DNA from: Hysterium pulicare CBS 123377
Lineage: Eukaryota; Ascomycota; Dothideomycetes; Hysteriales; Hysteriaceae
Direction of reading: 5' to 3'
Assembly: GCA_000467715.1 (NCBI GenBank)
Contig: AJFK01000189.1
Location: forward strand, 1-40,248
Length of the DNA stretch: 40,248 bases
Part shown: piece by piece, positions 1 to 25,389 of the stretch
Layout of the letters: every line of letters starts with the position of its first letter
How positions within the stretch are numbered: position 1 is the first letter of the stretch
Position numbers and translations under genes: made by a program
Notes under the pieces: generated by a model
Told to the model about the DNA's origin: nothing
The model's input: the letters and a program-made list of their open reading frames with translations, nothing else
Databases searched by the model: none

Positions 1-48
1 ATTCCTCTAATTAATAATTCCCCTAATTAACAATTCCTATAATAAGCC
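1..48. repeat. 16-bp AT-rich tandem repeat, left-edge array
   Basis: Three consecutive 16-bp units can be read: 1-16 ATTCCTCTAATTAATA, 17-32 ATTCCCCTAATTAACA and 33-48 ATTCCTATAATAAGCC, the last one degenerate. The array may continue left of the window. The core AATTAAYAAT followed by a variable 6-bp part is the same design as the arrays at 8941-9004 and 34322-34513. The coding homology of the decayed gene to its right ends at about position 50, so the array sits at a breakpoint. Confidence 0.8.
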
Positions 49-49
49 A

Positions 50-1544
50 GCTCATGTTGACGAGTGCAAAAGGCCAGCCAACCAAGGAATTCGTGAACTC
101 CGCGAAAGCGCTATGTGCTGGCTCCAGTATCGCCGTCGCGTCATTGATCATGTCGACAAACTGTCCCAGGAATCCATCTAATTGAAGCGCTTCGACCAAA
201 AGCGCAAGTTGGCGTGCCTCTGGAGACATTTCGAAGATGTCACCGTGCTGGGGTTTTCGGGTGGCAGGAAGGGAAGCCATTCCACCAAGGCACACCTCTC
301 TGAAAAAGGTACCGTCGGAAAGGAAGACCTGGATGCCGTAGTTGGCGTAGTTGATGACGACCTAGCCCCAGATCGGAGTATCCCACTCAAGCGCAGGATG
401 CCGTAAGGGTTTGTCTTCGTCCACGATTCTGCTGTGGCTTATGTTAGGCATGACAAAGCAAGCATTCAGTCGAGCCGGCTGGTTAATTTGCATAGGTACT
501 TGCGAGTATTTCTGGGTAAGGTCTCGTGACCTAGCACGTCCTGTGGCGTATACCACTCGCTAATGCATGGGAACATTTCCGGAGTCGTCTCTATTGGTGT
601 CGGATCAATGGCTTCTGATCAATGGCGTGGATAGCTTGACCAAATTTCTCGATAATGTTCAGCTGGTCTTAGACTGTCCATGAGCTACCGGCTTAAAGGT
701 TGAATTTGGTTTGGATACGTTCCGACTAGTGCCGTAGGGCGTCAAATCAGATCCAACTTCAATCCTGCCGATGTTAGTGACTACAAATTCAGCTTCTGTA
801 CCATCTTTGTACGCTTCGGAGATCGGCTGCATTACTCCGCTGCCCGGAAGACTAATAAAAAGTTTAGCTTGCTCTTTGAGTTCCACCGCATCTTCGGGGC
901 CAGTGCTGACAAAGGGCGAGACGTCTACCTGGAGGCCGATGTACTCGTCTATTTCTTTGATTGCCCATTAAAGATCGCTTTCCACGACCCATGCTGTAAT
1001 TTCCTTCAGGCCAGACTTCTCAACGGCTTCTCTCGGTTGAACTTGGTCCATGTTTTCAATTGTACGGATTACTAGTCATCGGGTTGGGACATTGGGCTAC
1101 TTGGGCATGGAGTAATCGACATGCTCGTTCCGCGACTCACCTCTCAGACTCCTCTCGCGCCCATACGAATCTTTGCCTTCTCTGTCCTTTTCGTTGCGGG
1201 GCCCCAATGCGATACGCTCGAGGCATGGTCCAGTGGATGTAAACGCCCTGGCGGTCGCCGGTTGCGGCATGGAAGCCGTGTTCCAAGATCTGTGAATCGC
1301 GAGTTCGCATCCGCCGGCCCCGAGCTGTGCAGATCGACATTGTTCATGATGTCGCCCTGTAAATACTTGGGTTCCAGGCGTAGGAAGGTATAGTTGGGTT
1401 GGTGATGGGTGCGAGGTTGGGATTCTCTTTGGCGCTGCCGCACACTGGCTTGTTAAGTACGAAAGCGTCGACTTTGATGGGAATGAGGACATTCTGCTTA
1501 AGTCCCGGATACATTGCTGCTTCCGTTGATCGTTGTATTTTCAA
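50..1544 (-). pseudogene. Decayed large prokaryote-like hypothetical protein 'A' (VYLHW / NYANYGIQVFL family)
   Basis: Read on the minus strand, the remnants fall in protein order but in several frames. The N-terminal part (about 1500-1140) shows IPIKVDAFVLN, LAPIT, NYTFLRLEPKYLQGDI, VDLHSSGPADANSRFTDLGT and GVYIHWTMPRAYRIG. The next part (about 1025-840) shows ITAWVVESDL, an in-frame stop, then LQVDVSPFVSTGPED. After this come QINQPARLN (about 480), PALEWDTPIWG, a stop, VVINYANYGIQVFLSDGTFF (about 390-310) and NSLVGWPFALVNMSW (about 95-50). I recognise these blocks from long hypothetical proteins shared by bacteria and some fungi, whose function I do not know. At least two frame changes, two internal stops and missing internal blocks (intact homologues are about twice as long, from memory) make it a pseudogene. 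Homology stops at the 16-bp repeat. It lies head to head with decayed gene B, which belongs to a companion family. Confidence 0.75.
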
Positions 1545-1992
1545 GCGTAATTCGCAGCATGATCAGATAACTCCCATACAGGACTGAGGGATCGAGTCCC
1601 GTGACGGACGGCCGCGGGGACACACTGCCCGAAACAACATTGGAAGCTGGTCTAACAGTGCTGGAGTTCCGTTACGCTTGGTGGTGACGCGCATCTACGG
1701 GTTCAATCCACCACTAAAGGACGTATGCAGCTCTTGGGCTGAACAAGATGACCTGGACCCTCGGGCTGAGCAGCGATTCAGCAAGCCAGCTACAGTAATA
1801 TTCGTGTGAGCCGGAATGTCTGATTCACTCTCATGCCTGGGCATCCAAGATTCCGGCTTTCAACAAATCGATATTCCTATGCCAGCTGGAAGGACGTAGC
1901 ATTTAAATAAGGGCAGAGCGGTCCACAACTTCACCGTATGATTCTCACCCACCTAGTATACGACAAATCGTAACTATTTCCGCTCCTCTGCC
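1545..1992. promoter_or_regulatory. Intergenic region between divergent decayed genes A and B, likely former shared promoter
   Basis: About 450 bp separates the first recognisable codons of A (minus) and B (plus). A TATA-like TTTAAATAA lies at 1902-1910, about 85 bp before the B start, and a pyrimidine-rich run leads into the start context CCATGG at 1991-1996. No other gene is visible. Its promoter role is inferred from position. Confidence 0.4.
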
Positions 1993-4242
1993 ATGGCAAG
2001 ACCCAAATCAAGGACGCGGTACCGGTACCTGACTCTTCGTCATGAGGGACGCATCCTCGAGAACCGGCCACGAGAGCTAGATCCCGGCGAAGCAGAGTTC
2101 CGCGCTTTCTACCAGCCCTCCATAGAAGGCGGCCTGCATACCATCACTATCACTCAACGTGTCGATGCCGACCCAGGAAACCCAGAGAGTGATCCAATTA
2201 AAAGGACAGCAGATTCCAAGCCTTCAACCCAGGACGTCGACGTCGTAGCCCCGCGCTTCAGTTTGCCGGGCGCAATGCTCGACGCCTCGTTTCCACTTCC
2301 TGGACATACAGCGTGGGGGTAAGACGCTGTCGCATTTGACGCTCAAGGATCAGCGTTTCATATGGAAGAGAAAGGAAGAGAAAGGCATGTGATAGAGAAG
2401 AGGATGTCAAGGAGGAGAATAATCGCGTCCTGTGGATTGTGCTGATTGCATTCACGGAGGATGATTTGAAGTTGAGCGACCAAGAGCATAGTGCGATGTT
2501 TCGCAGTGTACCAAACGTGACCGCAAATAAGACTCTTGGGTTCAACTTGCCAGTGGTGCAATTGAAAAAGAACCGGGGTGGGCTAACGAGTAGACTGAAA
2601 GATATTAGGCCCGTTGAAAAGACCGGGAGTACGTCCGTCATTTGCGTTCGGAGAGAGTCCGCCGGGATCATTTGACGTGTACAGCTAACTGCGGCTCTTG
2701 GGTCAGAATAAGAATGTACTCCGCAATGAGCGCAATGTGGCAGCAAATCCAGCTACAGCTGAATGTATTCGAGGCTTAATTTCCCAGAGACAGGATGACG
2801 GATGCACCGTCATCCGGTATAGGACAGTGACTGGGGAAGAAACAGCTGGCATCTATCGCGGACCGCTCGTACCGAAGAGAGTCAAGCACCCGCTCCGGAG
2901 CGACTTGACGATCCAGCCTAACTTTGGCACCGACCTTCAGATACTGGATTCAAACCTGGGTTTGATGGACCTTACATACGCGATAGCCTGGCAGCTGGGA
3001 AAGAGGCTGGCTCTTGGCGATGCAGCATTCACGACAGCGCTCGCGCGAGTCAGAGGAGTTATACATGCTGAAGCGATCAAGACGGCCAAGAAAGACATAT
3101 ACGTAAACTTGGGCGTCTACACATCTCGAGATGCCACAGTCAGTATGATAGCGGATTTGGTGTAAGGACTAGGAGATCTGAACTCCAACTTGCGCAGTGC
3201 CGGCATGACAGCGGTCTCGACAAATAGATGGAAACGGTCCCGGGTCGATAAGGTTGACGTATCACTACATTCTACGAACGTCTTCTCCCATGATCACCAG
3301 GAGGCCGTGACCACAGCCATTAGAATTTGAGGGTAGGCTCTTCGACCGACGGCAAGCCCTACAACTACCACAACATCCCAAACAACACTGACGATGCGTT
3401 GGTCCAAGACTGAGTGCTCGACAAAGTGCATGTGGCTGGTACCCCCGCGCATAATCCCACCCCTCATCCTTCTTTCCTTCCATAGGAAGCGCTTCGCTTC
3501 TTCTACATTGACGAAAACTGGGTTGATGCCCTGATCGATGGCGCATTGAGCCTTGCAAGCCACAGGGCGGCCAAGCTAGAAGAGGATTACTGCCGCAGCG
3601 CCGTGAAAGCCGCTCTCAACAAGTTTCTCACTACGCGACAGGATGGACTCGGATACCGGCCCAGACACCGAAGTACGAATTTTTGCTCTAGTCGCAGGTG
3701 CTCGCACAGTATCCCGATGTGACATTTAGGGCAAGCTCGAGCCAATGGTGTTGGTCACCGAAGACCCATATATGAAGCCAAAAGCGCCGATTTTGATCCA
3801 GAGAAAGCTGGAGTCAGACGTCATGCTGTGCCTGTTCGACTGTTTACCACCGGAGCTAAAAAGCCTCAAGTTTGCGCTGCCGCCGCACCAGCAGGGCTTT
3901 ACAATCTGCGAGGAACTGACACTCGATAAGCTCGTTGTATCATTCCAAAAGACGTATTCGGTCCCTCCGAAGGATAAGCAGAATAAGAAGCGCGTGAGCC
4001 GTCACTTTTCAAAGGGGATGTCGGAGATCTTTAACTGAAATACGCGTTGCATGAAGGTAGAAGCGTACGCGGGCAAGGTGTGTGACTTCTGTAGAGGCAA
4101 CATGAGCAATGACGACTTCCACGAGACACAGGCTACCTCTGCCTTGCTGGCGCTCCAACGAAATGAGCCCATTTATACTCTGGATATCCAAGTCCCTGAG
4201 CCCAAGGCTGTGGACGAAAATGCTCTGCAGCTGAGATCTTGA
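1993..4242 (+). pseudogene. Decayed large prokaryote-like hypothetical protein 'B' (YRGP / RFFYID.NW.DAL family)
   Basis: The start at 1993 has a good context and opens a 109-residue stretch with GLHTITITQ and APRFSLP. The homology then changes frame several times. 2318-2392 carries LSHLTLKDQRFIWKR. About 2425-2675 carries LWIVLIAFTEDDL. 2698-3165 carries YRTVTGEETAGIYRGPLVP and LGLMDLTYAIAWQLGKRLAL, then an in-frame TAA, after which DLNSNLRSA and NRWKRSRV continue. 3336-3690 carries YNYHNIPNNTDDALVQD, a TGA where homologues have Trp, then SFLP, a TAG, and RFFYIDENWVDALIDGALSL. About 3662-3740 carries KYEFLL, a TAG, then SQVLAQYPDVTF. 3745-4038 carries KAPILIQRKL and LFDCLPPELKSLKFALPPHQ. After a further TGA, TSALLALQRNEPIYTLDI ends at 4242. 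Order and spacing match a family of long proteins in bacteria and some ascomycetes (from memory; function unknown). At least four frame changes and five stops rule out introns as the explanation. Confidence 0.8.
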
Positions 4243-4498
4243 ACAACGCAATTGCAAAGTTGGTGTATCATCATAGAGAGCGTCTAGTTCATGTGCGTAT
4301 GGTAAGTTTGAAAGCTGGCGAACGATCGGAAAGTGTTGACAGATGTGGTGCATACATACACGTGACCAGGTGTGTTAGCGTGTCGTAGCTTAGTCGACCC
4401 GGACACGAAACCTCAACCCCACCATCTGTGCATCGTCACCGCTTCAACCTCAACCCCCAACCTCACCTCTTTCTTCCTCCCAAGCCTCATGCCCATCC

Positions 4499-5863
4499 AT
4501 GCCAGCTAAAAGACCCCATTCCGTCGTCGAACAGGCTGCTTCCGAGCACCCGTCGCAACCTGTTCCAAAGCAGCGACGTACGGTCTCGCCCACCACTTCA
4601 TATCATCACTTTACCTCTTCCGACGCCCCCGAAGCCTCCGAATCTCCTGCACCTCGCTTCCATCTTCCTCTCACCCGCGAAAACCTCAAAAAGCTGGATA
4701 GAGAATCGATGGCTACTACGACACCGCTCACCTCAAAAGCGAGCAAGAAATCCAAGGACGCATTGTCGACCTCGACTTCGCTCGATATAACCGAGAGAAT
4801 CAATCGCTTGGCTCAATTCGACATTCATGTCTTAAGACCGAAGCGCATCCCCCACCCCGCCGGTCTCGACGCTCTCATCGAAACGATTTTGAAGACTCCC
4901 CGCGATCCAAACGTCCCTGAATCTCCGAACTACAAGAACATTGCTGAGCGATGGATTTATACATTCTGGGAGAACGAAAACACGGCTAAGGCAAATCTCT
5001 TTGCGGACATTGTCGGGACATCTGAGTATTCTGGCGGATTCAAGTCAGTGGATGTGCTACAGGATAAGGACTTTCTCAAAGAGGCTGTACCTATTCCGGC
5101 GAGGGAGACATCGGACAAGATTCTTCAGGAAGTCATGGATGCTGTCGGTGCTCCCGAGAGACCACGCCCAGATCTGTGCTACGGCTTCCAAGCAACTGAG
5201 ACCGCCATGACTCCAGTCTTCACCGAAGCCGAAGCAAGCGTAATCGATCTCCTCTCGAAATACTCTCGTCCTTGCCCCGGCCTTGTGTTTCCCTTTTTCA
5301 CTGTACAATGGAAGAGCACCGTGACCGGCGGCTCTCACCAACATGCCATCCTACAAGGTGCCCGAGATGGTGCAGCACTCGTATCATCTCTTCACAATTT
5401 CTTCTTGAGCTGCAATCTCATCAACATCGCCACCGAGGATACCGCCCATTTCTCCCTAACAGTGGATTCCGCTTCCGTCATGCTATACTGCCATTGGAGA
5501 TGGCTTGGTGAAGACAATCGACCCCATTGGGAGATGGAGCTTCTCGACAACTGGTTCCTGAATAAGGAAAGCCAGCTGCGAGAGATGCGACCAGTGATTC
5601 GGAACATTTTCAAGCATGCCTCCGGGGAACGCATGCGGAAATTGAAGGCGGCCATTGCTCACCGTATTAGTGCTCCCAGCAGCACTCTTTCCATGTCCAC
5701 CCCCAACTCAGCCCCATCCGCCTATACTCAAGCGACCTTCGTCTCAGCACCCAACATACTTTCGACGCCTCACGGCCAGATTAGGCCAGTATCAGAACTC
5801 AACTCCCCGAATCTCTCACCCCCTTCTGAATGGGGTGCAAAGAAGCGTAAGAATGGTCTCTAG
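4499..5863 (+). CDS. DUF7924-like fungal protein with probable PD-(D/E)XK nuclease-like core
   Basis: An uninterrupted 454-residue reading frame without introns. Residues 1-95 are Ser/Thr/Pro-rich and basic in places. Residues about 100-385 form one globular domain. It contains NYKNIAERWIYTFW (144-157), RPDLCYGF with Asp225, FPFFTVQWKS with Gln270-Trp271-Lys272, and an Ala/Arg-rich helix GARDGAALVSSLHNF (287-301). The Asp, E/Q-x-K, helix order is that of PD-(D/E)XK nuclease-fold domains, and overall it resembles the fungus-specific DUF7924 family. Residues 390-454 are Ser/Pro-rich and end in the NLS-like KKRKNGL, which suggests a nuclear protein. The usual Glu of the E-x-K motif is Gln here, so cleavage activity is doubtful. 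The start 4499 is the first ATG of the frame; Met71 is the only plausible later one. Cellular role unknown. It begins about 250 bp after decayed gene B, on the same strand, but is fully open and so still maintained. Confidence 0.85.
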   Translation: MPAKRPHSVVEQAASEHPSQPVPKQRRTVSPTTSYHHFTSSDAPEASESPAPRFHLPLTRENLKKLDRESMATTTPLTSKASKKSKDALSTSTSLDITERINRLAQFDIHVLRPKRIPHPAGLDALIETILKTPRDPNVPESPNYKNIAERWIYTFWENENTAKANLFADIVGTSEYSGGFKSVDVLQDKDFLKEAVPIPARETSDKILQEVMDAVGAPERPRPDLCYGFQATETAMTPVFTEAEASVIDLLSKYSRPCPGLVFPFFTVQWKSTVTGGSHQHAILQGARDGAALVSSLHNFFLSCNLINIATEDTAHFSLTVDSASVMLYCHWRWLGEDNRPHWEMELLDNWFLNKESQLREMRPVIRNIFKHASGERMRKLKAAIAHRISAPSSTLSMSTPNSAPSAYTQATFVSAPNILSTPHGQIRPVSELNSPNLSPPSEWGAKKRKNGL

Positions 5864-12521: not shown

Positions 12522-13541
12522 TCAGCATGCTCCAATTGCCCTTGTGATGAAGTCAAATGCCTCTAGAGGTAATGGATGAGACAAAAGAAAGGAATCTATC
12601 CACCCATCACTAACCCAATCTTCCCAATCACCCACTGTGTACAATGCTTTGCAGTATTCCCAATATTCCGGATACCAGCCTGATTGACCCCAGTCAATGA
12701 TTGCAAGAACTCTTGGAGGTCTCGTGGGACTCCTAGTACTCTCGATAATGATGTTGCTCCGATGAAGATCAGCGTGGGTGAAAGTAATGGCACCTTTATC
12801 TAATTCTGCTAGAAGCGGCCTGCAGAGGTTTAGAAGTACTTGTGATTCAGGATAGTCCGCACGACCGCGCCAGAGCCAGTCGAACCAGTCGTGGAATTTG
12901 GCGACAGTGGGGAATGTCCCTGGTGAGGGCTGACCTTCCAAAACCCAATCCTTCGGTGCATTTTTATCAATTGAACCTAAATCATGCTGGTTAAATTCAT
13001 AATTTTGATAGGAACGAGAGATACAATTACCTATAAACTGATCAGATGGTTCCTGCTTGAGGGTACGAAGCTGTGATATGATGCTCTGGAGCTGGCTGCA
13101 GACTGCACCCCTCTCGGAAGAGTCTAGTGATTCCCAACGATCTTGGAGGGTCGAACCCCGAATGAGTTGCATATAGATGAAGACCTCTTTCCCATCTACT
13201 TTCCATCCATAAAGTTCGGGTACCGGTACTTTATCAGAGAACAGCTTCTTGATTGCCCAAAGACATAACGCCTCCGAGGTCGACACGTTACGGCCATACT
13301 TGACAATAAGCTCGAGGTCTTCGAATCTAATAACAGGTCTTATGCCAGTGCTTGTGCAGCGGGATCTGACTTCTTCGGGAGAAGGTAATGGAAAACTCGA
13401 GCCGTAGGTCTTGAAATAGGAAGAGTCGAGGAACGTCATTTCCATCTTTGAAGCATCTGGCAAGTCTCGAAGCACGACTTGTGGGCATGTGTTGTTGTTG
13501 TTGGGCGGGACCAAATCCGGCTGGACATCCTGGGCCTCCAT
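12522..13541 (-). CDS. Aminoglycoside phosphotransferase-like (APH family) fungal protein
   Basis: A 339-residue protein without introns. It has the protein-kinase-like fold of the APH/choline-kinase group. The nucleotide-binding part includes LELIVKYG (Lys81) and a following acidic helix position, SEALCLW (Glu90). The hinge-like IYMQLIRGSTL follows at 122-132. The catalytic loop is FTHADLHRSNIII (Asp258, Asn263), and the metal-binding motif is IIDWGQSGWYPEYWEY (Asp283). Fungal members are abundant and their substrates mostly unknown; antibiotic resistance should not be assumed. The start chosen is Met at 13541. The frame stays open to an ATG at 13745, giving 407 residues, but the extra 68 residues are low-complexity and do not resemble the family. 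The 3' end lies about 190 bp from the end of the convergent gene at 12330. Confidence 0.85.
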   Translation of the reverse strand: MEAQDVQPDLVPPNNNNTCPQVVLRDLPDASKMEMTFLDSSYFKTYGSSFPLPSPEEVRSRCTSTGIRPVIRFEDLELIVKYGRNVSTSEALCLWAIKKLFSDKVPVPELYGWKVDGKEVFIYMQLIRGSTLQDRWESLDSSERGAVCSQLQSIISQLRTLKQEPSDQFIGNCISRSYQNYEFNQHDLGSIDKNAPKDWVLEGQPSPGTFPTVAKFHDWFDWLWRGRADYPESQVLLNLCRPLLAELDKGAITFTHADLHRSNIIIESTRSPTRPPRVLAIIDWGQSGWYPEYWEYCKALYTVGDWEDWVSDGWIDSFLLSHPLPLEAFDFITRAIGAC

Positions 13542-16500
13542 ATCTCGAATACGGAAGTAGCGAAAAGAACCGAGGTGAAATCCTGATTTACAAAGGAAGC
13601 CGTTGCAGCAGGAAGTATTTGCATCAAGATTTCGGAGAGTTTGGGGTTGGCGGTTCGAAGCTTGAAGTTGTAGACGAAAGGTTGGAAGATGACAGATAGG
13701 TGAGGTTGGAAGTGAAGTTGTAAAAGACCCGGTCGGAGCGGGCAAAACTTGTTCCGAGAATCACGAGAATAGGCTAACTTGTGCGGAGATGAATATTATG
13801 ATCATTGAATGATTATTTTGACCGCTCTCCTTCTCTTTTATCCTTCAAATCCTACCTGCATTCTAGTAGTGAGACATTAAGGAGTTCGGCAGTGGTGATA
13901 CATCTGTGCAGCATTTCTTGTCAAGACTGAGAGTGCTTGGGAACCGCCTCTCGGGGACCTTCTCATAATGATGAGTCTATAAATATAGTCGCCAGAAGCC
14001 AGAGAGAAGTCTACAATGAGGCTGAAGCCTTAGAAACTAAGATGATACATCCTCCCCCGGTGCCAGAAGCCTTAATATTTCACCCTCACCCGGAAGAAGA
14101 GTTTGCATTGCGTGACCGATATGTTCCTCTTGCCAAGTTTGGAATTGATACTGGTGTTGCTCTCGAGGAATCAGAGTCGGAGATTGAAAGAGGTACGATT
14201 AGCCCATCGCATATCCCAATTCGTTACCACTTTGAGAGTCAGAAACGTCCATCATGTAATAAGAGGTCTGAGAGATGAGATCTATATTGGAACAAGCTTG
14301 AGCATAGTCCTTAATGATGCAGGGGCTGTCATTTTATATACGACCGGATTCGAAATGCTGCACAATGACTATGGCTAGTTGAATGGCTCTTGAGGATTGT
14401 CTCAGATGATTTCCCTTTCAACGTTGGAGTCTAATTGAAGATTCAGGCTGTATCAATCTGCTTGCACCATCCCGGGCAGTGTCTTGTGGCAAAGTATCGA
14501 GACTTCTTGGCCAGGATGTCTTTCGTATCAATGAGCCGTGGAGCCCTTGAGTTGAGAGGGCTGGCAATTTCTAGTCTCGAAGAAGGAGTGGAACTAGAAA
14601 CTTCACCTCGAACAGCTTGGAACCATTCTCATGGGCTCATTCGGTAATCTCGAAGTCGCTAACAAGCCTTCATTGAGGCCTCGTTGTTAGCCCAGAGCAT
14701 GTGGACGTAACACGCCTTATATGATCGTGAATGACTTGGCTCATACCGTGCGCAGCCATTCGTCCACTGCTTAGTTCCGCTTGATGCGATCGCTCCTCCA
14801 TACTGCTTCTTCTCCTACAGCCAATGCCACTGCTATGTTTTTATTAGAGCGTCATTGTAACTTGGAACTCGGGGTTGAATGTGCGTTCCACGATAGACTC
14901 GATAATGGGGAACTTTGCGCGATGAGATGGAGGAGAGGTCGGGTACTGTGGGACGTCTGTTGTTGATGAGCGCAGAGTATGTCGTGTCTAGCTACGTACA
15001 GGAGCTTCGTTGAAAGGGGGGAGGGTTGCAAGGAAAATGATCTTAATGATTGGACGTCGGGTAGACGAAAGGGCGCTGATGTCGCCTATTTGTTAAGTTT
15101 CATCGTATGCTGAGATATAAGATGGCTGTAAGATCGCGCGTATCTTAGGTTGGACGAGAACGAATAGAGAAGCTGGTTGAAGAGAAGATGGGTAAAGTGG
15201 TCGCTCTAAAAGACGGTAAGTTGGGTGGTTGGCTACGAGAGGGTTGCCGGACAAGCTGGGGACGATCGTGGCCTCGTATTATTCGCAGAAGCATCATAAA
15301 ACTCTTTATTGTCAACAACCTAAGATATCGCATTCTCATGAGAACGACTGGGAACTCATTACGAATCCCAATACACCAACCTATTACCATCTCCTTCCCC
15401 TTCGCTCCACATCAAATCCAGTAACATGTGGCGGAGTTGGTGTCCCAGGATACTAAAAACGAAAATCTCGAAAGCCCCTTGGCAACATTCGCCCAAATTG
15501 CGCGCAAAGATTCTTAGTAGTGCCAGTGATTATTCGCGATAAGCGCCGTGTCGCGACAAGTGGGTCCTTCGTGCGGTACAAGACGCGGAAGGGTCATCGA
15601 CCTTCATAGACAACGTCTACTTTCATCGCTTCTATATGCCTTCAACCGCCGGAGCCAGAGAACCTTGTTCCTACCGTCGAAAAGTTCACTCGCCTATGAC
15701 AAACCCTGTATGAGTATTGATATCCTTGAGCGAATACACTATACCAGCAAATATCATGATCCGTGGCCCGAGAGGCTGGGGTGGTAATGGAATCTCGACG
15801 GGCATTGTGAGTGTTGGGGAACAGGACGGAGGGGAGAGACTGAACTCTTATTGAAGTGCTCAAAAGCTCGTCTTCGAGTGCATCATTATGAAATAGGGCT
15901 TGGTAGCAGGAGTTTAAAATCTGTAACGAGAAATGAGTATCATGCCACATCCGAGTGAAATACGCACCTAGGAACAATCTTGCCAATTATCTCCTGTAGA
16001 ACGCTGTGGAAGGGCATCGTGGACCTGGAAGCTTCGAGGAGAAGACGAGTTGGCTAGGGTAGGTAGCTGAGAAACGCATAGAAGTGGTGCCAAAGATTGA
16101 CAACGAAAGTGAGCGATGATCTGAACTTGATCGTCGCGAGATTGCAGTCATGCCGACCAGCGACGGAAGTAGGCAATGTGCATTGCAATAGGCGAGATGG
16201 GAAGGTAAGGAACTGAAATTGTGATTCGGGAAAGTGAACATTATGCGACTCGGAGCAGCGGTGCTGGCCTCAGCGGTGGGAAACTTGGCGGTAACGGAGA
16301 GCTCGGTGATGATGGAGCGCTTGATGATGATGGGGCCTTGGTGGTGAAGAAGAGCTTGGTGGTGTTGGTGCTTTGCAGTAAGTGGGGATGTTCGGGGACG
16401 AGAGAGGGAGCGGAAACGAAGGACGATGCAGGTGGAGATTCAAGAGGCACCAGTTATCCTACGAAGCAAACTGGAGACCATTCGAGCAAGTTCGTGAGTG

Positions 16501-17313: not shown

Positions 17314-20300
17314 GCTGAATGAAATCCTTGGTGAGTGGTGAAGGTGAAGTCCAGTATGAGTGGACCACTGAGTGAGGTGTTCGGAAGTGGGTATCGGTCG
17401 CGAGGGGGTGTGGTTCGTGAGAAGAGGGGTCGTGGATGTGAGTTGTAGGCGAAGGTGACGTGGAGGAGGAAGTGGGGTGGAGAAGGAAATAAGGTAAAGG
17501 AAGAAGTGACGTGCCGGAGAGAGTGAGGTGTTAGAGGGAGGAAGTGGTTGGATGAAGGTAGAGATGAATGAAAGTGAGTTGTTCAACGAAAGAAGGATTG
17601 AGGGGAAGTGGTGGACTGAATTGAAAGAGGTTGTTGAAGAAAAGAAGAAGGGAGGGAGGAAGTGAGTTTATATATTTCGATTAGGCACTAGCGTGTCACG
17701 TGTGTGCCATAAGCTCGGACCACCACTAATCTGATTGGGTAAAGCGTAAGAAGGATGAATGTTTTCGAGGGCAGGGAGATTAGTACCTGCTAGAATGTTG
17801 GAACTTTTGGATTACCGCTGGCTTTTTCTCTTTGAGCCTTGGAGTTCGACTCTTTTTTCTTCTCGTCGTCATTGATAAATGTAGAGTCCCAGCACATCTT
17901 GATTGCCCTGGGATTTTAACGTATTCGGTGAACAGGAAACACTTTACTCTACTTGTTATCGCCCTAATCCATACCATGATGTGTTTTCAGCAATGAAAAA
18001 GCTAACACCAGTTATCTAGAATAACCTCAACTAAAATCACCTTTTCGACTGAAGTCTCCCCTTTGAGCATCCCTCAATCCCAGATCTTACTCTGATAACC
18101 TTCTCTATATCCCGTCGATGAACCAAGCTCGCGGGAAAATCTCCCGAGTTTCGCCATCCAACGTATAACCAACCTTCCTGCGATCCACTCACCCCGCATA
18201 CCTCAGCCACATCCTCCTCCCACAATGAATGCATCCTTCTTCTCCTTATCTTCCGTTCCATTAACCACGCCCTTCTTCAGGACGCCGCGAGATGTCTCTC
18301 CGTCATAGAAGCCTTCTTCAAATCAGAACTGTCGCCTCTTTCCGTTCCCTCCAAACTTCGCACCACACATATCCCTTACTATCTCCAATACCCTGTACAT
18401 TGAGCGCTCTATGCTAGGGATATGGTTTTTCCAGGCGAAATGCTGCTTCCGCTTTCGAATTGAGCAGTCAGTAAGCTTTTTCTTTGGCTAGAACTAAGGC
18501 TGTGACGCTTGAATGTCTGGTTCTTGTGCTTTGATGTGGGAGCGTGACGAGGGCGCGGAAAAGAGAGGTGACCCACGTGGTAGGTGATATATTGAGGCTG
18601 AGGCTGATGAGACAGGGACTGGTGGATAAAGGAAATACGTAGAGAGAAAGGCTCAGGAAAGGTGTGAGGAGGGGAATTGAGCGAGAGGAGTTGCATGAGG
18701 CTTGATACTAGTCGCAAATTTGAAAGCACCAGAAATGAACGGGTTATCGGCCCAATCAGTTAGCCACTAATAGGAGTGTCCATAATTCCGGCTAACTTGG
18801 GTTCCACAAGAAGTTAATGGTGCGAAAGTGTTGAATTTACGATGTGGTCCCAGAGCTCTAAGTTGAGACAAGTCGGGGGAAGGTTCTGGGATGCTGATAG
18901 TGATGGGGGGTCTGCACAATATTCCAACCCATGTCGGGGCTGTATCTAAGGGTATGGAGAGGCTCTCCGACTTTCCCGAAAGCATACACCGCTCTGCAAT
19001 GCGAGTGACAAAGCAGCCACGGGATCTTATCGAATTCCTTCTCAGTGCAGAGTTATTAGAGGTCAGTGTCGGCAGATGCACGGTGTACGCTGGATTTGCA
19101 TTGTCCTCACATGCGACAATGTACATGGCTGCATATTTGCATATACAGATAAAACTATACAACTATAATTTAGTGAACCATCGTGCGGGTCTCTCGCAGC
19201 CAGTCGCCTAGCATTTTTGTGCTATGGCTGATTTCAGTAGAAGAGGCACCAACGCCCGCCAAAGCTCTATGCAGTAAAAGAAGAGGGCCTCAGTCTCCTG
19301 GAGAGAATATGAGCATCCGCCAGATACTCTCCGATGTAGAAGCTATTGCTGCAGAAGCAAAACAAGTACCAGATACTATCAAAACATTCTTCTGAAGCGC
19401 CCTTTTCAACCGCAAAATGATCTTCAACTGGTACATTTGGAACGATGACTTGGGATCCTCAACATCAGGCCATCTTTAGTTCACCGCACTGCAAGCTTAC
19501 CATATCTACATGCGACATATACTGATTGACTTAGATTGGAAAATGCTTGTTACTTATTGCAACCGAGCCCATGGTTAAACTCTAAGCCCTTGGCCGCGCC
19601 AGTGATAACTGGTTGAAGATGAAACTGTGCACCGCCTACCTCCTGATACATGGACTTCTTACGACACAACTCATCGAGAATCTTTTGCCAATCAAAGACG
19701 ATTCATTGCAAGAGTCATGGGCCGATTTGCTCTACATCGCCAGCATTGCCCGTGGTTCGTCCGCCGAATGAGCCAATCCACAACCATTCCTTTAGAGTAC
19801 TTGTGTTCCTAGAGATTCCTGTAGAGATCCGCTTCAAGCTTCAGCATAATAAAGATAAAGAGATGAGAAGTGAGAGATGAGAGATGAATCCGATAAGTAC
19901 CATGGGATGGACCAGGGTGGATGAAGAATGGAGTTTACTACAAGCCGATGGGCGTGAAGGCTGAAGGTCGAAGGGTCCGTACCACGCCAACCCGAAGAAG
20001 CATAGGAAAGCACGCAGGTCAGATCTCGGCTCGGTCCGGCCCACGCCGCTAGCAAGATCGTTCCCACTCGTCGTACACTAGCATGGCCACCGCGGCTCAC
20101 CTGCACACCCATCCTAAGCTCTCGCATGGCCTCCCAAACTTCCACTGGGCACCTTCCAACTGCAAATAACCAGTTTTTAATCAATCCGACCTGGATTGCT
20201 TCTCTCTAGTAGATGATCAATAGGCTACCTTACAAGTTAATCAGACCTATGTTTAAAATCTAAGGTTTCATGCACCACGTTTGAAAGCATTATACGTTCT

Positions 20301-21110
20301 ACTTCTTTTCTTTTGAAAGATGAAGATCCATAAAGCTGATTTGAAGGGCAAGAACGTCTATTCTTTAAACCATTCAGTATGTTATCGCACGACTCACCGA
20401 AATGAGTCAATGGGTTAGATTTCTTGCGGAGGACATAGGGCCCGTCGAGCGTACATAAAAACGGACGTCTGAGGTTTCTCACCTTGGAAACCTCGCTCCC
20501 ATGTCCCTGAAACCACTAGTCGTGAATTTTGTGTAGTGTATAGGTGTCGACACTTTCGTACGAGGCCTGGGAACCCCGAAGACTGGCGTGTGGGAGAAAT
20601 ACGGCAAGCTCGCGGCCGAATACTAAGGAGGAGCAATACTAGAGAAGCAACAGCGACGTTGATATCACTGCGGGCTCACAAGAAGGTACAACCTCTGCCT
20701 CCTGCATCGGTGGTCTGTTCTCGAAAGATTCGCGTCCCTCATTGGTTTACGACTTCTTTGGATCTTCATTTGAAGCAACGCCTCCGAGGATGAACGAAGG
20801 CTACTAGAAAGGTTAGCGAATAGTAATATGTCCATACTATACAGTTCTCTAGTGACATAGCGATGAGATCCCGCTGGCTTTGTAGTTGCCAGGGAGGGTC
20901 TTTCTATGTGGGCTGCTGGAGAATTCTTCATGGCACGCCGCGCCTCAATATCTCCGCCATGGACAAACGCAAGAATGTTTCTCGGACAAAGGATGCGGAG
21001 TCAGCGTCGTCAGCTTACTCGGACCTGGGTCAACTTCGATGGATGGCGGCACCTGCTCGGCGACACGTTGATTGGATACGTCCTGCACATTTCTCCCTGG
21101 CTAATTGCAT
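17314..21110. other. About 3.8 kb without a supportable gene
   Basis: 17320-17660 is strongly purine-rich on plus (GAAGG/GGAAG runs). The remainder holds short unrelated frames, for example 18220-18390 with INHALLQDAARCLSVIEAFF and 19590-19760 with WADLLYIASIARGS. These look like fragments of former genes but match nothing I can name. Confidence 0.5.
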
Positions 21111-21119
21111 AGTTCTGCA

Positions 21120-21430
21120 AGCGGACTGGAGGCGTTTCTCCCCCCGATCGGCGAGAACCCGGGTAGCGCTCTAGACATTGGGATCGAAGCCAGTATATGG
21201 GCCAACGACTTTGCGGATGACTTCCCAGGGCCGGAGGTACTGCTACCGACATCATCCCCATAGAGCCGACGTGGGTCCCGGGGAACCCGAAATCGAGATT
21301 GTTGGTATGAAAGTTCTTGAGGAGTGGTGAGAGCTGTTTATTGAAGCCAATGAAAAGATAAGCCGCGGATACAAGATGAAAGAAAGCAGGGGAAGCCGGC
21401 GAGACATCGTGAACACAGAGTCTTTCCCAG
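21120..21430 (+). pseudogene. Relic of a LaeA-like S-adenosylmethionine-dependent methyltransferase
   Basis: One frame from about 21144 reads PPIGENPGSALDIGIEASIWANDFADDFPGPEV. This follows the LaeA-type pattern PIG.NP...LD.GTGTGIWA.DFAD..P.AEV, with the glycine-rich SAM loop altered (GTGTG to GIEAS). The frame ends in TAG near 21225. After a frame change at about 21248 the next family block follows as DIIPIEPTWVPGNPK, where intact members have SPIQPTWVPPN. A further piece with LFIEANEKISRGYK lies at 21306-21380 behind another stop. The enzyme would have been a nuclear methyltransferase-like regulator or a small-molecule methyltransferase. The broken SAM site, frameshift and stops make it non-functional. 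The N-terminal third is not recognisable. Confidence 0.6.
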
Positions 21431-22040
21431 GCTATGAAAGTAATCCAGTCCTCTAGAGTGCCAAATGGACCACCCAGGAAGCAATGCGTCTAATCTGTTC
21501 GCCAGACCCAAGTATTGGATTTCGCCGAAAGTAGCGGCGCGGCTCCGACTCTGTGAGATTGGTGAGAGTATACTGGCATGAATAGCGGATGGTGGTTTTA
21601 GTTCTCGTGGGGAAGACCTATTGCTATTCTATGACCAGAATTAAGGGAGGCTATGAATATTGCGGACTGGAAATGAGTGATGGAGGGAACTGTAGCTCCG
21701 TGGTGTGGCCTGAGTCTGGATGTGCTGCTTGTTACTTGGGTTATAGAGCTTAGTTGACCTTTCCTGGCATGAGTCTATGTCTATTCTTCGGCTTTTTATT
21801 CTTCTTGGATGTCATACCTACTTGATCGGTGATTATAGCCTTGGTGGAAGGGTTTCCGCAACCTACGGAGCTAGATAAAATACCGAGGGGTGTATATCTT
21901 ACTTTGAATGCCATCGACACGAACAATAAGAACGAGGGTGGAAATAATGGCGAGGTGCATCCCGTCCAATGACTTGTAAACCCACTGTGCTAGCAATACC
22001 ATCTCATCATATCGCGAACAAGCTCCAACTCCAACCCCAA
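21431..22040. other. Intergenic region 3' of the beta-lactamase-fold gene
   Basis: No coding sequence or strong repeat is visible. It presumably includes the 3' untranslated end of the minus-strand gene. Confidence 0.5.
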
Positions 22041-23705
22041 CTACAATTCCGAGACATCCCGCCCCTCGTCCACAACCATCCCTCCCTCTCGCCTTGTTAA
22101 CTTCCCCCTCAACCCCATAAAGTCAACTACCTCCACCACCCCCTCCGCACCTTTCCAAAATATAATCTCATTCATAGGCGGGCCATCAATATTCGCCATA
22201 CAGAAATCATTCCAAATACCCTGATCACCCTGTATCCGTTCATTCACAACAAGGACGCGCCATTGCTCGCCTTCTTGCGTGGACTCGTTCCGGTAGAGGA
22301 GTGTTGGGATCGCTTGAGAGTACCATGGTTGGTTTTCTCGAGCGCCGGCGGTGAAGAGGGTGTTGAGAAGGTTGGTGGAGTTGGATATCCATTCTTTGAG
22401 CACCAGGCCTCGGTCGTCGGCTAGAAGAGTCAGCGAGGCGTTGAGATCGGGCGTAGATGCGGTATAGATCCCCGAGTATCGCTCTTGGAGTTGTCGTATA
22501 GCCACTTCCTCGGCTGCACGCACTACTTCCACCGTCACGATCTCTCGTATCTTCTCGAGGAAGTCGGGTTTGTTGCCAGCTACTAGGATAGTAATGCCGA
22601 GATCGTACTCCGGGACTGTTATGATGATGGAAGTATACCCCGGAAGCCCACCAGATTTTGTTATAAAGTTGACTGTTCTTTTCGAACTGGTGAGAATCCT
22701 GTCTGTGCGGAAGATTTCCCAGGGCGTGCCGTAGAAGGAATGTAAGCCGAGGGAAGGCGATGTCGGGTGGACCCAGTTCAAGGCGGATGTGATGCTGTTG
22801 TAGTGGGTTAAGATGTAGCGGAGGTATTCTGAGAGGTCGGTTGTGGAGCTGTAGATTCCACCTGCGGGAGCCTGGACGCCCAATTCGTAATCCCAAAGTT
22901 GCGGTTCGAGCGGTATCACTCCAGCGCTGTCGGGGGGCTGCGATAATGAGCTCTTGGTCATGTGTAGGGGCTTGAAGATGGCGTCGGTGATGTAGGACTC
23001 GTAGGTTTGGTTGGTGACATTCTCGATGGCGAGGCCGAGGAGTTCGAATGCTACGTTGGAGTAGGTGGATGTTTGCTTGGGCGCGAAGAGGGGTGGTTTC
23101 GACTTGACGGCTTTCATGAGATCTGACAGGTCTAGTTAGCGTTGACCTGAAGCTTCTATCCCACACAGTCGTATCTTTATCGTACCTTGATGAGTGTAGC
23201 ATTTCTGCTTACAGTCCATGGGAATGCCGCTCAGCTGGCTGGCCAATGTCCGCAGCGTGATGTCTCTCCACCGTATGCCGCCCTCCTCCTGCTCGCCCTT
23301 CAATTCCTCAATATACGTATCAATGGAGTCGTCCAAGCTCAGATTGCCCGCCGCATGCTGGCACAATATGGCGAGGACGGTGAACGACTTCGTGATGCTC
23401 GCAATGCGATACAGGGCATCGCCATTGACCTCGGGGATGTCGGGGCGCGACGCGTTGCGTTTTCGCGCGGTGTGGTGGCGGGACCATAGCGATTCTTTTG
23501 ACGACGTGAGCGCGATGGAGAAGGAAGTGGATGCGTACTCTGGGGCGGCGACAGCGGTGGCTAAGGCGGCGTTGATGCGTGCGAAGGCGCTCTGCAGCAG
23601 CGCGTCATTGAGGTCGTAGTCGGGCGGGAGATGGGCGGTGTTGGGCTCGTAGCATTTTGCGCTGGCGAGAGTTGCCCATAGAAGGCCGAGGATAAGCAGC
23701 ATCAA
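22041..23705 (-). CDS. Secreted serine beta-lactamase-fold protein (beta-lactamase/esterase family)
   Basis: Two exons, complement(23186..23705) and complement(22041..23122), give 533 residues. The 63-bp intron has donor GTACGA, branch GCTAAC and acceptor TGTCAG, and the join reads CYTHQ-DLMKAV in frame. Residues 1-16 (MMLLILGLLWATLASA) are a signal peptide. The serine beta-lactamase-like domain shows S103-I-T-K106 (SxxK nucleophile motif), Y194-S-N196 (YxN) and K329-S-G-G (third-motif position). All catalytic elements are thus present. A C-terminal domain follows from about residue 390, as is usual in fungal members. Fungal relatives include tailoring hydrolases of secondary-metabolite clusters and LACTB-like peptidases; the substrate cannot be told from sequence. 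A decayed LaeA-like methyltransferase lies about 600 bp beyond its 3' end. Confidence 0.88.
23123..23185 (-). other. Spliceosomal intron, 63 bp
   Basis: On the minus strand AAG/GTACGA is the donor, GCTAAC the branch site and CCTGTCAG/AT the acceptor. Removal restores the frame between the SxxK and YxN motifs of the beta-lactamase-fold protein. Confidence 0.85.
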
Positions 23706-25389
23706 CGTGGTGGAAGCTCAGGTCGAGCTGCACCATGCAGCTAGTGGAAGGCCGAGGTGAAAGTCGGCGTCGTGGGGGCGGGGCGGGGCTGTGCGGTCGC
23801 AAAACTGGGGGTCACGGTCGTGCATGTACAAGCCTTCGTCACCCCAATGCACCTTCGAATTCCTTGCTACATTGGCATGTTAGGGCGCGCTCTCTATGCC
23901 TTCGATCCTGAAGAAATAACGGCGGCTTTCCTTGAGGCCGATGTAGTCCAGGGCCGGTATGCCAGCCCGACAGGCCCGGCGCATACGCATACGGCATACA
24001 CGCACAGCGCTTGCTCGCAGCGTTTCAAAGCTCGCGGAAGCTTATGACGCACGATCGCGACATGTCCCGCCATGGCAATTTTGGCAGAGACACGGAATCA
24101 GACCGAAAGCAGTTGGGCCGTCACAACCTTGAATCCAGTTGCACCTGGGCCATGCGGATAGATTGCCCTGCGTCCCCGAGTAGGTTAACGCTCTAAGAGA
24201 TCAGTCTGGCATCATCTTATTGCAACGGATAAGCGCCGTCACTAAAAGTGTGCCTTCCAGCAGCTAAGAAATGATACTGTTATTAGCTGCCAGTCACATC
24301 GCCCGTTTGCCCCATAGTTGATACTGAAGCCACATACCAGCCTGGAGCCAGGAGAGAAGGTGTTCAAAAGGAAGCGTGTCACGTTAGCATCTCCGATGTG
24401 AATCCACAGCAACGGTATGGTGATGATTTCTCGTCTCGCAATGTGCTTTCATGCCTCCCTCCATTATATTCGGAACCAGTTCGTAACGGATCCCGTACGC
24501 TACCAGGCAAAGCACGATTTATATCTTTACGTCGGCGCAAGCCTCATTGGAGGTAGAAATAATCCGATCCACCTCCATAACACTCCCCCAAGCTCAATAC
24601 TATTGTAATAGCTCCGATTATTCGCTCTCACTCAAACCCGGACCGCCGGACGAGGCACCCTCTATTCGTCCAGAGTCTATCAGCTCTACATCTATAGCGT
24701 AGCTTCCGTGTCCGCCATCACCCTCATCCCCCAGATCAAGAACCCCGATTTAGGCAAGTCTTAGCAGCGGGACGTCATCGCCATCACTCTCGCTGCCATC
24801 ATGTAAGCCCGACGTTTCTGCCGCTGCCGGTTTGAGGAGGCGAGGTTAGCTATCGCAGTGGTTAGCCGGCACCGTTGACTTTGGCGACCACGCGAGACTA
24901 GATCTGGGGCTATGTGGTTGCCGCTGGGCCAGCTTTCGCCGCTTAGGTAGCTGAAGAACACTTTAGCGGAGTCAAGATCGAGATCTTTTCTGGCGCTGTT
25001 GCCAGGGTGGGATTTACATCATCGGCACTACTGGATAAAGGTTGCTTTGCCTCAATCTCGCAGGCGTTGCTAGCTCGTTTGTCATGCCATGGTTATCATC
25101 GAGAGACATGCTTGAGTCTAGTAGATCTACAAAAGTAAAATACATCGCCGTCTCTATAAACCCAGGACTGTGTACTTCATCTACGGTAGCGTCGTCCGGA
25201 GTCCGCATAATTGCCGTACTCCACCAGAGGGCAGTGCAAAGGGCCTTGTCTGAAGTGAGGGCTGTGAGAAGGCTCTCAGCGTCTCCAAGAGCATCCTCGC
25301 TCAGGTACCGGACTATCGCATAATCTACATGTATACCGCGCCGCTACTTACCAGCCAATTTCTTCACCACCGGGAAAGCTTCCTCCGTT

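Follow-up and report, generated by a model that had tools for sequence, protein, structure and literature searches.

Here we report that contig AJFK01000189.1 of the ascomycete Hysterium pulicare CBS 123377, analysed over its entire length of 40,248 nucleotides (hereafter the window; contig C153 of a 37.2 Mb genome in 596 contigs), very probably carries near its start a broken, partly deleted paralogue of a pair of giant genes, A and B. The window copy is dead, and the same genome retains on another contig, C162, a set with open frames that comprises A, B and a third large gene, C, which belongs to the family DUF6603 (PF20248). Bacteria carry members of these three families as a compact unit, in the order C-B-A. 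A single old acquisition followed by duplication would fit the compared sequences best. We give the explanation as a whole, namely a dead paralogue, a transfer from bacteria and a complex built from the encoded proteins, a probability of roughly 0.6.

A dead copy and an open copy in one genome

The original prediction, made from the letters of the window, had placed two companion families of long proteins head to head and described both as decayed. The five peptide blocks that it quoted are present as read, with NYANYGIQVFL and GVYIHWTMPRAYRIG on the minus strand and AGIYRGPLVP, AIAWQLGKRLAL and RFFYIDENWVDALIDGA on the plus strand. We mapped the remnants by tblastn using the A and B proteins of C162 as queries. 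Indeed, the remains of A lie at 47-1395 (minus strand) and those of B at 2086-4011 (plus strand), head to head and collinear with the C162 proteins, so that homologues align in order across pieces broken by stops, frame changes and deletions (Table 1). In-frame stops number three, two and one in three of the five B pieces, and two A pieces contain three stops and one stop, respectively; the part of B at 3384-3721 (residues 651-765), which contains RFFYIDENWVDALIDGA, has stops and spans two frames. The contig starts inside A, and the remaining C terminus of A would fall past its end. The distance between the two genes, predicted at about 450 bp, measures nearer 600-690 bp.

Chance similarity was rejected as the source of these matches. 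The top pieces score 86.3 and 85.5 bits against best scores of 26.9 and 26.2 bits in 200 first-order random sequences built from window positions 1-4400, and reversed queries returned a single match (E 0.24). Repeat-induced point (RIP) mutation was likewise rejected as an explanation for the decay: in their dinucleotide indices, the window genes resemble both C162 and the remainder of the window. It is very unlikely that the window genes are functional and interrupted by many introns. Introns can imitate stops and frame changes, and single frames in the window do stay open for up to 158 amino acids (aa), but A and B on C162 are open over 1437 and 1289 codons, respectively, and large parts of both proteins are missing from the window: about 685 residues of A (approximately 204-888) are absent or unrecognisable, as are most of residues 124-446 of B and all of residues 858-1289, its last 432. 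Judged as a member of the A/B/C set, the window has A in order and an adjoining B; it has neither C nor open frames. Pieces of the DUF6603 protein found no match in the window, one flank being invisible since the contig begins inside A. Ten open pieces from the window gave nothing above the cut-off in Pfam, and a search of the window for a telomere revealed no three-fold TTAGGG run.

Table 1. Remnants of A and B in the window, with residue numbers of the C162 proteins.
Feature	Position	Strand	Match
A, residues 4-42 (N-terminal)	1395-1279	-	59% identity over 39 residues; E 2e-14 jointly with the 34-71 piece
A, residues 34-71, GVYIHWTMPRAYRIG block	1298-1185	-	39% over 38 residues; frame differs from that of the 854-1336 piece
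A, residues 36-203	1336-854	-	28% identity, E 6e-8; three in-frame stops
Possible A, residues 889-907	665-609	-	53% over 19 residues; E 0.16 alone, retained for its expected position only
A, residues 958-1110	499-47	-	36% over 161 columns, E 2e-19; one in-frame stop
Interval between head-to-head starts	1396-1992	.	bounded by the first A match (1395) and the first ATG of the B frame (1993)
B, residues 42-123 (N-terminal)	2086-2307	+	26% identity, E 4e-5; within the open frame 1957-2322
B, residues 447-642	2785-3390	+	three in-frame stops; contains AGIYRGPLVP and AIAWQLGKRLAL
B, residues 651-743	3384-3668	+	43% over 95 columns
B, residues 746-765	3662-3721	+	50% over 20 columns
B, residues 765-857	3751-4011	+	38% over 93 columns; no B match past here

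The prediction had also supposed that the genes were lost in this lineage, which the open set on C162 contradicts. There, A occupies 17359-21669 on the plus strand and B 12525-16391 on the minus strand, again head to head. Past B, beyond a 280-aa frame on the opposite strand, lies C, split into exon-like pieces, one of which matches DUF6603 at 1.2e-134, the sole DUF6603 match in the genome. A third site, on contig C212 (13244-13468, locus L105), holds a 75-residue remnant of B (E 5e-8) near an AT-rich contig end, where the GC fraction drops from 0.35 to 0.04. A remnant of C on the same contig is not claimed: the 47-residue match had two stops and an E of 0.007, and was absent at E 0.5 in a larger target.

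To place the copies, FastTree trees were built from the stretches under one open window piece each (128 columns for B and 105 for A, with 85 rows each; L037 and L086 were left out for B, L037 and L059 for A). In both trees the window and C162 copies group with a support of 1.0, the open frame 2689-3162 of the B remnant thus joining the B of C162. Over these stretches the two copies are 41% (B) and 39% (A) identical, the best bacteria reaching 34% and 23%, and over their full length the C162 proteins do not exceed 28% identity to any bacterium examined. The bacterial neighbour is uncertain: B falls with two Paenibacillus sequences (0.73), and A joins these two together with an acidobacterium (0.93). 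That the set passed from bacteria to the fungus is nevertheless probable, and the acquisition of A and B proposed at the outset is likely to be right in this respect. In the history that we favour, the fungal lineage would have acquired the set from bacteria once, long ago, and duplicated it; one copy would then have been kept while that in the window decayed. Bacterial contamination of the assembly, by comparison, is scarcely credible. The relatives are bacterial and all three sites lie near contig ends, but C is split into exon-like pieces, decayed copies occur on two contigs, and the low full-length identity to bacteria contrasts with the 39-41% shared by the two copies, which group together.

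A conserved three-gene unit in bacteria

A tblastn search with the B protein of C162 found eight plasmid records, from Streptomyces, Embleya and Paenibacillus, and six of these B-bearing records were examined as loci. In both annotated plasmid records with DUF6603, the DUF6603 gene is followed by B and then A. We then compared an alignment of A with contigs of 84,980 species. Of the 190 relatives found, ordered by similarity to an Embleya A, the top 80 were retained, which gave 79 loci. These belong to 72 Actinomycetes, two Bacteroidota and one each of Bacillota, Myxococcota, Chlorobiota, Acidobacteriota and SAR324. Using profiles built in this analysis, B was found directly before A in all 79. 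C stands directly before B, on a single strand, in 78; in the remaining one, L037, the contig is 4.5 kb long and begins within B. The plasmid loci have C-B-A in five of six. Therefore, the two-component system that had been proposed is better described as three-component, the DUF6603 gene adjoining the pair in nearly all loci of both kinds. The packing is tight, with a median of 3 bases from the stop of C to the first B profile match (n=83) and of -3 from B to A (n=85). Some frames are split, B into two in L086 and C into two in L018, L059 and L090.

The pairing of A and B, predicted to extend to bacteria, holds there without exception, every full bacterial A copy examined having B beside it. 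Six genomes, picked since they carry loci found with A, were scanned in full using PF20248 and the profiles of B and A. All ten full B copies in them (some in pieces) adjoin A and C, nine in the order C-B-A and one as A-C-B (G003:C34), and four of the ten lie outside the loci that had brought the genomes in. The same genomes hold scraps of 68 residues of B (G003:C33) and 66 residues of A (G002:C8). Among the plasmid records, three carry C but match neither A nor B, another holds both of these but not C, and one has only an 85-residue piece of A. No full A or B was found lacking the other; C is sometimes alone.

Individual replicons add to this picture. The locus without C is on a plasmid of Paenibacillus sonchi (L015:14338-19689), with an opposite-strand helicase gene upstream and A in two frames, from which the set may be decaying in bacteria too. 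In a Chitinophaga genome with two full sets, a further DUF6603 match (G002:C4:148583-150277) has neither A nor B nearby. The Embleya plasmid NZ_CP108777.1, which includes locus L010, carries A, B and C at three places each; the set can thus occur as several versions in one replicon.

The prediction had assigned no known function to the pair, and A and B do match no family searched. Those of C162 gave no match in NCBIfam, Pfam, PHROGs or PADLOC at the limits used, and bacterial A and B gave sub-threshold noise only in Pfam and nothing in PHROGs or PADLOC. Seven A, B and C proteins were without a match in PHROGs and in PADLOC (E up to 0.1). Bacterial C proteins match PF20248 at 2e-107 and 7e-114 (two members). 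The entry for this family, which excludes A, B and a fourth gene, D (below), and which no window gene matches, states unknown function only. Neither DUF6603 nor PF20248 was mentioned in the literature searched, nor DUF6603 in the accessible portion of PMC8213781. Viral origin was rejected, since A has no match in BFVD at E<=0.001, B none in phage records and the seven proteins none in PHROGs.

AlphaFold2 models of one bacterial B (727 aa; predicted local distance difference test, pLDDT, 86.7; predicted template modelling score, pTM, 0.75) and one bacterial A (1141 aa; pLDDT 88.4; pTM 0.83) contain many strands. With Foldseek, neither had a match in the PDB at E<=0.001 (best 0.012 for B and 1.0 for A), and the query-normalised template modelling scores were below 0.1 among the 50 matches listed per model; Foldseek alone was used for this comparison, and a distant known fold may have escaped it. 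Profile searches of PDB sequences with hmmsearch gave at best 0.039 for A, none for B, 0.66 for C and 0.12 for D. The alignments behind the structure models took in 55 of 57 length-filtered frames for B and 52 of 61 for A, and the C profile 23 of 68. Strongly hydrophobic 19-residue stretches occur in 2/86 A, 0/86 B and 0/73 D frames.

One use for such proteins would be to build part of the cell surface or spore coat in filamentous bacteria, the fungus having put them to new use. Many of the hosts, among them Streptomyces, Frankia, Paenibacillus and Hyalangium, are spore-forming or multicellular, and the many strands of the A and B models would suit a structural or developmental role. On balance this role appears unlikely, as the set also occurs on plasmids and is present in several copies in single genomes, and B has no strongly hydrophobic stretch.

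Accessory genes and a possible function

Single-linkage clustering of mechanical frames identified a further family, D, in at least 58 of the 85 loci; at least 57 loci have it downstream of A. In L011 the clustering overlooked the D genes, which a shadow frame had hidden. In our reading of an alignment of 23 of the 73 D frames, a beta-type stretch comes first and repeats stand at the end. An S74 endosialidase chaperone domain was matched by one of the 23 members (3e-5), which we read as that of L084, and D matches 33 PHROGs families, with many tail fibres among the 25 listed (best 1.7e-20). Three members have weak bactofilin-like matches, and a phmmer search of the PDB with one D protein gave nothing significant. 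Where a locus carries two D genes, the ends can diverge: in L048 and L063 the paired proteins share 82-94% identity over the first three fifths and 35-36% over the last fifth, and in L011 the match is limited to the first 269 of about 370 residues (79% identity). In the S74 match of one member, in the tail-fibre or baseplate PHROGs families matched by one member each, and in the conserved front and diverging end of these three pairs, some D proteins may recall phage tail fibres; most members match no such family, and in one annotated plasmid locus no phage genes were seen. When one D protein was used as query, no match was found in the Hysterium genome, which shows little; the fungus may have kept the core alone.

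Upstream of C, a Pfam scan of 40 of 51 listed frames recovered 17 families. Metallo-beta-lactamase folds (five) and hemopexin (four) recur among the 40 proteins, and subtilase, trypsin and a pertussis-S1-like ADP-ribosyltransferase are single cases. The frame at L085:3546-4595 has both pertussis-toxin S1-like and Scabin-like ADP-ribosyltransferase matches (3e-8 and 4e-4). The upstream proteins of L043, L053 and L078, which have no Pfam match at 0.01, may resemble EEP nucleases in a motif. Two upstream proteins were compared with the PDB by phmmer, and one had two weak, non-significant matches (0.035), to chains of one clostridial-type protease. Downstream, 65 hand-picked frames belong to mixed families, as judged by the 25 listed of 50 matched.

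The original prediction had raised the question of whether bacterial copies lie near contractile-injection or other multi-gene loci. A contractile-injection vicinity was rejected: such genes are not regular neighbours within the flanks examined. No sheath, tube or baseplate gene appears among the 40 upstream proteins or the listed families of the 65 downstream ones, within about 10-15 kb. Baseplate protein V is annotated in one of the 85 loci, the plasmid locus L013, where it ends about 9 kb before C, and it has no relative in the other 84. The set does resemble an extracellular contractile injection system (eCIS) in its fibre-like gene and its adjoining enzyme or hemopexin genes; hemopexin has been predicted to be an eCIS effector domain (PMC8213781). 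The set differs from an eCIS in having no regular contractile neighbour, no PHROGs match among the A, B and C proteins tried, and no solved structure close to the A and B models at the cut-off.

Three co-inherited and tightly coupled large proteins, with fibre-like and enzyme-like accessory genes that come and go, suggest one multi-protein assembly. In the mechanism that we propose, with low confidence at this step, A, B and C would be soluble structural subunits that assemble into a single complex. In bacteria, the partly tail-fibre-like D would supply the complex with its target, and the changing gene that precedes C would be its cargo. Such a target-binding, cargo-carrying complex of soluble subunits is a tentative and rather doubtful proposal, and the likelihood of a cytoplasmic conflict system or of a surface structure falls little short of it. 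More speculative still, C-B-A(-D) might be an undescribed kind of soluble particle that binds a target and carries cargo, with new folds and no relation to contractile tails, which spread in soil bacteria and was taken over by fungi, the core surviving there without the fibre gene.

As a conflict system, C, B and A would sense or trap an invader in the cytoplasm, the upstream gene would be the enzymatic arm and the D-like proteins would recognise the invader. The variable, enzyme-like upstream genes (metallo-beta-lactamase fold, protease, ADP-ribosyltransferase) speak for this, as do the near absence of strongly hydrophobic stretches from A and B, the bias towards actinomycetes (72/79 loci, in a ranking by likeness to an Embleya protein) and the CATRA and CHAT genes that lie 5-10 kb off in one locus. 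We hold it to be improbable, with PADLOC silent on the seven A, B and C proteins, conflict genes noted at a single annotated locus and none prominent among the 25 of 50 families listed for the 65 downstream proteins.

Several observations weigh against the explanation that we prefer, a transferred and duplicated set whose products form a target-binding carrier. For the transfer, the trees name no donor (supports 0.66-0.93), and its direction is argued from the distribution of the genes. For an intact copy, the A frame of C162 has no ATG near its start; its first codons may sit in an upstream exon, or the start may be damaged. For solubility, 15 of the 87 C frames contain a stretch whose hydrophobicity exceeds 1.9. 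For a cargo gene, a same-strand frame of at least 150 aa ends within 120 bp of C in only 32 of 83 loci, some of these being shadow frames, and the upstream proteins include a universal stress protein, a transposase and an acyl-CoA dehydrogenase. For a targeting fibre, D was not found in 27 of the 85 loci (some contigs are cut), and each listed tail-fibre or S74 family rests on one of the 23 D members. In addition, the conserved-front pattern is not clear in 16 of 18 same-locus D pairs, mostly too diverged, and the L012 pair has it reversed.

As a dead duplicate, the gene pair of the window is nothing unusual. It is the gene set, and not the remnant, that looks new, as judged by the libraries and papers searched. 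Its three large families stay together in this genome as well as in bacteria from several phyla; two of the three, A and B, have no profile in the libraries searched, and their confident models have no solved-structure match at the cut-off. As a unit the set can be removed or expressed as a block, hence it is easy to test, and the fungus offers a second, independent setting.

Other features of the window

Beyond the remnants, the window contains a DUF7924 gene at 4394-5863, presumably of a fungal family. On the minus strand, a 412-aa open frame at 12522-13760 matches the phosphotransferase family APH (PF01636, 4e-11). Two adjoining frames of 364 and 193 aa at 22041-23717, also on the minus strand, look by eye like a single serine-hydrolase (beta-lactamase-like) gene that an intron or a frame change has divided.

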